Positions 44-15,697 of a DNA stretch of 36,673 bases are shown here, piece after piece; position 1 is the stretch's first letter, and each line of letters begins with the position of its first letter. The position numbers were made by a program, and so were the translations under genes. The notes beneath the pieces were generated by a model that saw only the letters and a list, made by a program, of their open reading frames with translations, was not told the DNA's origin and did no database searches. The DNA comes from Candidatus Berkelbacteria bacterium (GTDB taxonomy: Bacteria; Patescibacteriota; UBA1384; 2-12-FULL-50-11), in contig JACRAP010000018.1 of the NCBI GenBank assembly GCA_016213365.1, positions 1 to 36,673 of the forward strand, read 5' to 3'.

Positions 44-117
44 CGCGCCCGAGAGGATTTGAACCTCTGACCCCAACCTCCGCAAGGTTGTACTCTAATC
101 CACTGAGCTACGGGCGC
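44..117 (-). tRNA. tRNA-Arg, anticodon GCG
   Basis: Reverse complement folds as a cloverleaf: GCGCCCG acceptor, GCTC/GAGT D stem, CAACC-TTGCGGA-GGTTG anticodon arm, AGAGG-TTCAAAT-CCTCT T arm. Confidence 0.93.
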
Positions 118-129
118 ATGTATAATATT
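97..129. repeat. 33-bp perfect direct repeat, copy 1 (5' end of tRNA-Arg plus leader)
   Basis: aatccactgagctacgggcgcatgtataatatt, identical to 176..208. Confidence 0.95.
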
Positions 130-175
130 CTCTCACAATGCGAGCCGTGGCGAAGGGGATTGAAGCGAAGCGTAA

Positions 176-208
176 AATCCACTGAGCTACGGGCGCATGT
201 ATAATATT
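176..208. repeat. 33-bp perfect direct repeat, copy 2 (truncated tRNA-Arg 5' end)
   Basis: Identical to 97..129; not followed by the rest of the tRNA. Confidence 0.95.
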
Positions 209-259
209 TTGATATTTTCCCAAATCCTACCGTTTCCTTGCTGGTTCTAAAACCAGCTG

Positions 260-346
260 CGGAAGCTGTAGGATTCGAACCCACGAGGGACTTGCATCCC
301 TAACAGTTTTCAAGACTGTCCCGATAAGCCACTCCGGCACGCTTCC
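260..346 (-). tRNA. tRNA-Ser, anticodon TGA
   Basis: Class II tRNA; anticodon arm ACAGT-CTTGAAA-ACTGT, long variable arm, T arm with TTCGAAT loop; TATAAT box upstream on the minus strand (363..368). Confidence 0.93.
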
Positions 347-7920: not shown

Positions 7921-7985
7921 GAACGATGGGATTCGAACCCTGAAGCGTGGACCTGCCGAACCTGTCGACGGCAGTTTTCAATCTG
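7921..7985 (-). pseudogene. Degenerate tRNA-Ser-like 3' portion
   Basis: Minus strand reads ...GATTGAAAACTGC...AGGGTTCGAATCCCATCGTTC: Ser(TGA)-like anticodon arm and T-arm, without a 5' half. Confidence 0.5.
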
Positions 7986-8074
7986 CGGAGAGGCAGGGAT
8001 TCGAACCCTGGGTCCGCCTTACGGCAGACAACTCATTAGCAGTGAGCTCCATTCGGCCACTCTGGCACCTCTCC
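7986..8074 (-). tRNA. tRNA-Ser, anticodon GCT
   Basis: GGAGAGG...CCTCTCC acceptor, CTCA-CTGCTAA-TGAG anticodon arm, long variable arm, CAGGG-TTCGAAT-CCCTG T arm. Confidence 0.94.
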
Positions 8075-8101: not shown

Positions 8102-8175
8102 AAAAAACTGAGCCATCGTGGCCGCCGGGGAAATTGTTTATTTCCCGCCGGATGCTGCGCTCGCTCGCATCCGAC

Positions 8176-8220
8176 CCACTCTGGCACTAACCATAAACCC
8201 AGTCTTGGCAATGCCTCAAC
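8176..8220. repeat. Imperfect direct repeat, copy 2 (truncated tRNA-Ser(GCT) 5' end plus leader)
   Basis: 12-nt identity ccactctggcac plus similar flank (tcttggcaatgcctcaac vs tctcggcatagcctcgagc). Confidence 0.65.
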
Positions 8221-9291: not shown

Positions 9292-9330
9292 GTAAAGAAA
9301 ATGCATTGAATTTAAGGTATAATTTACAGG

Positions 9331-9345
9331 TTGGAGAGGTCGCAT
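9331..9345. repeat. 15-bp perfect direct repeat, copy 1 (truncated tRNA-Ser(CGA) 5' end)
   Basis: ttggagaggtcgcat, identical to 9391..9405. Confidence 0.9.
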
Positions 9346-9390
9346 CGCCCTAGCGGTTGAGCCGACCTCGCCACAGTTGGTCGCATCACG

Positions 9391-9405
9391 TTGGAGAGGT
9401 CGCAT
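9391..9405. repeat. 15-bp perfect direct repeat, copy 2 (intact tRNA-Ser(CGA) 5' end)
   Basis: ttggagaggtcgcat. Confidence 0.9.
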
Positions 9406-9482
9406 AGTGGACTAGTGCGCCGCACTCGAAATGCGGTAAAGTCGCAAGACTTTCGTGGGTTCAAATCCCACCCTCTCCGCCA
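9393..9482 (+). tRNA. tRNA-Ser, anticodon CGA, CCA encoded
   Basis: GGAGAGG...CCTCTCC-G-CCA, anticodon arm CGCA-CTCGAAA-TGCG, long variable arm. Confidence 0.93.
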
Positions 9483-13165: not shown

Positions 13166-14026
13166 ATGAAAGGCATAATTTTAGCGGGCGGAAGCGGAAC
13201 GCGTTTGTACCCAATTACTAAAGGCATTTCAAAGCAGTTAATCCCTATTTACGACAAGCCGATGATTTATTATCCGCTTTCTACCTTAATTCAAAGCGGT
13301 ATCCGTGATATTTTAATAATCACAACGCCGCACGAGGCGTCGATGTTTAAGTCGCTTCTTGGTGATGGTAGTGAGCTCGGTATTAAAATCAGTTACGCCG
13401 TTCAACCAAGCCCCGATGGCCTTGCGCAGGCGTTTATTATCGGTGAGGAGTTTATCGGCAAAGACTCGGTGGCGTTAGTGCTAGGTGATAATATCTTTCA
13501 CGGACACGGTTTTAATGGAGTTTTAAAAAAGTGTATCGACCCAGAAGGCGGCGTTGTTTTTGCTTATCAGGTATCCGACCCAGAGCGTTACGGCGTTGTA
13601 GAATTCGATAAAGATATGAACGCGATCTCGGTTGAGGAGAAACCAGCCAAGCCAAAATCCAATTACGCGGTGGTGGGTTTGTATTACTACGATAACGATG
13701 TGGTGGAAATCGCTAAAAATATCAAGCCAAGCGCTCGCGGCGAGCTTGAAATTACCGCCGTAAACGACGAGTACTTGAAACGAGGTAAGTTAAGGGTTGT
13801 GGTGATGGAGCAAGGTTCGGCGTGGCTAGATACCGGAACGTTTGAAAGTATGAACGACGCCGCCGAGTACGTGCGCGTTATCGAAAAACGAACCGGCCAC
13901 AAGATCGGTTGCATAGAAGAAGCCGCTTGGCTCGAGGGCTTCATAACTGATGAGCAGCTCCGCACCCTCGCCGAGCCACTAAAAAAGAGCGGGTATGGGG
14001 AGTATTTGGTGGGACTAACAAGCTAG
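13166..14026 (+). CDS. rfbA: Glucose-1-phosphate thymidylyltransferase
   Basis: [71 protein letters not shown]. Confidence 0.97.
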
Positions 14027-15614: not shown

Positions 15615-15697
15615 GGTTTATAACCGACAAGTAGCTCCGCACCCTGCCCGAACCACTAAAAAAGATTGGGTATGGGGAGTATTTAGCCAAACTAACT
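15615..15697 (+). pseudogene. Relic copy of the rfbA 3' end
   Basis: ggtttataaccgacaagtagctccgcaccctgcccgaaccactaaaaaagattgggtatggggagtattt aligns to rfbA 13937 onward. Confidence 0.88.

Follow-up and report, generated by a model that had tools for sequence, protein, structure and literature searches.

In a group of small-genome bacteria, about four in ten tRNA genes (94 of 239 with at least one unit, in genomes G000, G001, G002, G005, G006, and G015) stand beside a separate copy of one of their own ends, a pattern pointing to a recurrent and previously undescribed process of insertion or duplication at tRNA ends. The repeated stretch is mostly the first or last 15 to 35 letters of the tRNA and lies next to the intact gene. 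Our best explanation, which we hold with about even confidence, is that these units are gene-less, structured, tRNA-anchored inserts that duplicate a terminal domain of the tRNA on either side of the gene and become layered over time. The initial annotation of the window (the whole 36,673-nucleotide contig of the Candidatus Berkelbacteria genome G000 analyzed here) had reported such copies for 5' ends; that observation is right but understated.

The tRNA-Arg repeat and other tRNAs of the window

The intact tRNA-Arg(GCG) gene occupies positions 43 to 117 of the window on the minus strand (ARAGORN; Rfam RF00005, 65.6 bits). A repeat search recovered a direct repeat, identical at 33 of 33 nt, at 97 to 129 and 176 to 208 with a period of 79 bp, so that the perfect 33-bp duplication first annotated there is exact. 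By boundary extension, the repeat reads on the minus strand as the 12-nt leader AATATTATACAT followed by tRNA-Arg nt 1 to 21; the copy at 97 to 129 belongs to the intact gene, and the copy at 176 to 208 lies upstream of it. The 46-nt spacer separating them (130–175, minus strand) contains AATCCCCTTCGCCACGG (145–161, minus strand), which is complementary to the copy's CCGTAGCTCAGTGGATT (complement test, p 0.05 for the Arg unit alone). Farther out, a promoter-like GGGAAAAT (214–221, minus strand) lies 17 nt upstream of copied nt 1; the tRNA consensus of this genome, learned from copy-less tRNAs, is GGTAAAAT. The best match to the tRNA-Arg 5' end in the upstream regions of other tRNAs is only 11 nt, which excludes a chance origin of the repeat. 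Chance or misassembly was also rejected on the grounds that orthologous tRNA-Arg genes in G002 and G005, on long contigs, are arranged alike and that control genomes gave zero copies.

Two of the three remaining tRNAs in the window have upstream 5' copies, as the initial annotation had it. For tRNA-Ser(GCU) (7985–8074, minus strand; ARAGORN), a 12-nt copy of nt 7 to 18 lies at 8176 to 8187 on the minus strand, as defined from sequence by boundary extension, and the spacer holds CCACGATGGC (8112–8121, minus strand), which is complementary to GCCAGAGTGG of the copy (p 0.29, not significant for this unit by itself). On its other side, a 15-nt copy of the T-arm, CAGGGTTCGAATCCC, was read downstream of the gene (7928–7942, minus strand). 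For tRNA-Ser(CGA) (9393–9482, plus strand; ARAGORN), the same procedure defined a 16-nt copy (9330–9345, plus strand) comprising 3 nt of leader and tRNA nt 1 to 13; it is preceded by a promoter-like GGTATAAT found by the promoter motif search (9316–9323, plus strand) and followed by CGACCTCGCCA (9363–9373, plus strand), the complement of the copied TGGAGAGGTCG (complement test, p 0.01). No upstream 5'-end copy was found for tRNA-Ser(UGA) (259–346, minus strand; ARAGORN). The loosely similar CGCCAC...GGCTC strings of the spacers, pointed out in the initial annotation, are no common element motif; they are spacer complements to each tRNA's own 5' end: AATCCCCTTCGCCACGG in Arg, CGACCTCGCCA in Ser(CGA), and CCACGATGGC in Ser(GCU). 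Spacers have layout and short motifs in common and no single consensus sequence. Elsewhere in the window, an 80-nt repeat (13,940–14,019 and 15,617–15,696, 81% identical) has one copy at the end of a nucleotidylyltransferase-like gene. The other copy, 1.7 kb farther downstream, contains an in-frame stop and is likely a gene remnant.

Units occur at both tRNA ends across related genomes

For each tRNA, we compared the first 38 nt with the 250 bp upstream and the last 40 nt with the 250 bp downstream, masking real tRNA genes and accepting ungapped scores of at least 12. In G000, a 560-kb draft of 23 contigs that is 94% complete, 5'-upstream copies were found at 11 of 37 tRNAs and 3'-downstream copies at 10 of 34. 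The corresponding counts in its relatives, whose genomes are 0.5 to 1.3 Mb, a size range that would fit Patescibacteria/CPR, were 4/38 and 11/38 (G001), 4/41 and 13/41 (G002), 5/41 and 9/41 (G005), 13/43 and 18/43 (G006), 8/38 and 10/38 (G015), 1/40 and 1/39 (G018), and 1/26 and 2/26 (G030). The same test on five control genomes (two Endomicrobium-group, one Clostridium, and two SAR86/gammaproteobacterial MAGs) gave 0/53 5' copies and 0/50 3' copies. Thus, the enrichment on which the initial annotation had staked its claim is present (11/37 5' copies in G000 versus 0/53 in controls), and the counts support a process that recurs at tRNA ends throughout the genome; restricting it to 5' ends was wrong, since mirror-image copies of 3' ends occur downstream with no lower frequency.

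The six genomes named at the outset span two families, and up to half of the tRNA genes bear units (24 of 44 in G006), although these reduced genomes are otherwise compact. Direct repeats (at least 14 nt, at 40–220 bp spacing) are 42 times denser within 250 bp of tRNAs than elsewhere (1.02/kb versus 0.024/kb). The narrow pattern GTAGCTCAG-N30-60-GTAGCTCAG matched in 7 of 55 genomes of the class and 14 of 380 of the phylum, while its reversed control had no match in either set. The same isoacceptors bear units in several genera, and some units at Ser-GGA, Arg, and Ile are kept across genera, a persistence that could mean selected function rather than turnover. Our literature search, which left subscription papers outside its reach, returned no account of such tRNA-end copies in CPR bacteria. 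Such units may confuse tRNA annotation and att-site prediction.

Polarity, boundaries, and complementarity of the units

Exact copies of at least 11 nt follow a strict polarity: 37 5' copies lie upstream within 200 bp, 0 beyond 300 bp, and 3 on the wrong side, and 54 3' copies lie downstream within 200 bp with 1 on the wrong side. Most 5' copies begin at tRNA nt 1, preceded by 0 to 5 nt of leader (12 in the Arg unit of the window), and have their inner end in the D-loop (13–21) or, for a few, in the anticodon loop (34–38). Most 3' copies extend to the last tRNA nt from a start in the T-loop (57–60) or, for a few, in the anticodon loop. This strict polarity and the loop-bound ends led us to reject decayed tandem tRNA copies as the sole source. 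Retro-copies of mature tRNA are disfavored, as genes without CCA have copies also without CCA.

The spacers carry complements specific to their own tRNA end (permutation of spacers among tRNAs: 40 5' units, p = 5e-5; 44 3' units, p = 2e-4). A further comparison for 3' units gave own 5.38 versus permuted 4.75 (p 0.004). Taken individually, 14 of 40 5' units and 13 of 60 3' units were significant (p ≤ 0.05), meaning that only part of the units show the feature clearly. Complement pairs covary among Arg units (for example, C-G/T-A at nt 16 and G-C/A-T at nt 17) and among Leu units. Because the spacers complement the same tRNA end, the units fold into strong predicted hairpins; mean MFE z values relative to shuffles were -2.57 and -3.08 for units versus -0.88 and -1.18 for flanks without units. 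In other members of the phylum (L162, L165, L166, and L170), we observed a 5' tRNA fragment that precedes one arm of an inverted repeat, the other arm lying downstream of the intact tRNA (CCCGCCCGACTCG ... tRNA ... CGAGTCGGGCGGG in L165).

Empty, occupied, and layered sites

G001 and G006 belong to the same genus and differ in their units. Two successive 3' units follow Thr(UGU) in G001, the outer more degenerate, and the G006 site is empty, running straight into the common flank; conversely, only G006 has the 5' unit at Arg(CCU). At tRNA-Phe (L264 in G006, L108 in G001), the G006 gene has acquired a new T-stem, changed on both strands, and the outer downstream copy, after which the common flank follows, keeps the old T-stem of G001. 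With the new stem in the gene and the old one in the outer copy, the outer copy is the displaced end at this locus. In G000 (L011/L013), tRNA-fMet is followed by two near-identical tandem 3' units with a period of 139 bp, and tRNA-Met by two identical ones with a period of 98 bp. Nested loci consist of a 5' half, a full tRNA, and a 3' half, and at Ile(GAU) of G001 the outer acceptor stem (GCGAGTA:TACTCGC) differs from the inner (GGGCGTA:TACGCCC) on both sides. A functional split tRNA is not a general reading of such nested outer tRNAs, as compensated outer acceptor stems are clear only at a few Ile loci.

We infer an origin by insertion with end duplication, resembling target-site duplication, and not by decay of whole-gene duplicates. 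The apparent direction, insertion and not loss, is based on a small number of comparisons between sister species. Under this preferred explanation, a 20- to 180-bp spacer would come to lie at a tRNA end flanked by a duplication of the terminal domain. At a 5' end, this domain would reach from nt 1 into the D-loop or the anticodon loop; at a 3' end, it would begin in the T-loop or the anticodon loop and include the last nt. The gene adjacent to the spacer would stay complete, and the outer copy would be the displaced or duplicated older end, decaying; further units could then be added at the same tRNA end. The spacer strand complementary to the copied end would let copy and spacer form a hairpin, and a 5' unit would leave the native promoter outside the copy, to be transcribed as pre-tRNA leader. 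With their boundaries, layers, and empty sites, the units provide countable insertion footprints, which make the repeated rebuilding of tRNA ends testable, as well as tRNA-like decoys in pre-tRNA leaders.

Predicted transcription of the units and a possible role in tRNA maturation

Among 34 5' units, the GGTAAAAT motif precedes the copy in 82% and falls in the interval from copy to gene in 18%, where 10% would be expected; it is found upstream of 76% of copy-less tRNAs. With the promoter upstream of the copy, 5' units should, judging from these positions, be transcribed as pre-tRNA leader. On the 3' side, a T-run separates gene from unit in 16 of 31 units with spacers of at least 60 nt and in 0 of 15 shorter ones. 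The earlier proposal of 5'-tRNA decoys in precursor transcripts may hold for 5' units, given the promoter upstream of the copy, and leaves uncovered the 3' copies beyond a terminator-like T-run.

These positions bear on a tentative alternative, possible although we consider it unlikely, in which copy and complement together make a selected pre-tRNA switch: folding of the leader would control tRNA maturation, 3' units would act likewise on the trailer, and the copy and the true 5' end would be rivals in pairing with the complement and with the 3' acceptor strand. The promoter outside the copy, the tRNA-specific complementarity with its covariation, the strong structure of the units, and their presence at the same isoacceptors in several genera are all consistent with such a device, as are several predicted MFE folds in which the copy binds the tRNA 3' strand and the true 5' end is paired to the complement. 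However, near-equal alternative folds arise automatically from identical copies, 16 of the 31 long 3' units lie beyond a T-run terminator, presence is patchy even among sister species, and complementarity is no stronger in 3' units without a terminator (p = 0.32). The same comparison, in which 3' units with and without a terminator were alike, led us to reject the idea that the complement evolved to insulate transcribed copies. More speculatively, and with still less confidence, small-genome bacteria might have a dedicated insertion system, guided by structure or by RNA, that adds hairpin units to both ends of tRNA genes by means of a spacer strand complementary to the target end, with transcribed units serving as leader or trailer switches on tRNA maturation.

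Slippage and integrase remnants as alternative origins

Neutral replication slippage or template switching at tRNA cloverleafs, with gene conversion keeping copy and gene alike, is an improbable source in our estimation. It would account for endpoints at hairpin loops, for inverted and direct copies occurring together, for the tandem expansions at both Met tRNAs, and for the strand-symmetric layout. However, the gene is matched better by the copy than by the complement, so the complement is not the copying intermediate; moreover, long 3' units of different tRNAs have a common layout, and units are absent in control genomes.

Least probable, and in our judgment quite doubtful, is that the units are remnants, reduced by deletion to about 100 bp, of tyrosine-integrase elements that had attachment sites at tRNA ends. 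The endpoints coincide with known integrase crossover loops, and tRNA termini, 5' or 3', are typical att sites (PMC3293823), the attB of Ms6 lying in a T-loop (PMC1762012). Against this, the spacers hold tRNA-specific complements, and there are no kb-sized versions, with no 5' copies at 300 to 1300 bp. PF00589 (tyrosine integrase) has 0 matches in G001 despite its 4 5' and 11 3' units, and a single match in most other genomes; with units but no match in G001, no integrase explains the process. Cas1 was absent from all eight genomes searched, and the Y1 (TnpA_REP-like) transposase was found only in G005 and G015, being absent from six of eight, including G000, G001, G002, and G006. We conclude that none of these three enzymes accounts for all unit-bearing genomes.

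Comparison with known systems

Repeats at the E. coli tyrT-tyrV locus have long been known. In that sequence, the last 19 nt of tRNA-Tyr, from the T-loop to CCA, recur beyond the intact gene at a spacing of 178 bp, with three copies following tyrV and one following tyrT. Each repeat is laid out as a 3'-end complement (GGGGAAGG...), GAGAACC or GAGAAGC, a hairpin, GGTTCGA, further hairpins, and the 3'-end copy. This is the layout of the long 3' units described here, which likewise hold a complement to the 3' end of the adjacent tRNA and close with a copy of that end. Rfam names the E. coli unit RtT RNA (RF00391; 132.9–137.5 bits in the E. coli locus L313), and the model had no match up to E 5 in eight other test loci, several with 3' units, so the resemblance is one of build, not shown homology. 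A search for the E. coli unit in phages and plasmids returned only enterobacterial RtT-like copies. E. coli has one locus and, in the stretch read, the 3' side only, whereas here many tRNAs and both sides are involved. By analogy of this common 3' anatomy, tyrT-tyrV is the closest precedent, and the E. coli RtT repeats would thereby be tied to a genome-wide process.

Other known systems each match single features only. Like tyrosine-integrase elements, the units show a reconstituted tRNA and a tRNA-fragment repeat, with the intact tRNA at one end, the fragment at the other, and breakpoints in tRNA loops; unlike them, they are gene-less, 20 to 180 bp long, present at both gene ends, and found in a genome (G001) that has no integrase. 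Casposons insert at tRNA 3' ends with a 14- to 15-bp target duplication (PMC6614799), close to the 15- to 18-nt 3' copies here, but Cas1 is missing (0/8 genomes) and the 5' side is used too. In the Caldiarchaeum tRNA-Thr model (PMC3293823), integration of an element leaves a 5' fragment (nt 1–27) as a direct repeat upstream of the intact tRNA, a likeness to the 5' units, although the insert there is 1.8 kb with a recombinase gene, at a single locus, in an archaeon. REP/RAYT elements differ in that their Y1 transposase is lacking in most of these genomes.

We observed a similar layered leader build at a non-tRNA locus of G005 (L140:2015-2290), upstream of an apparent ABC-type ATPase gene, with four or five layered GTAGCAAAYACCCCGGAGACTA copies, repeated promoter-like GGGGTAAAAT, and complementary GGGGT strings; it had no Rfam match at the gathering cut-off. 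A separate stretch of G002 (L127:6230-6350) matched LOOT RNA (RF03000) with 65 bits.
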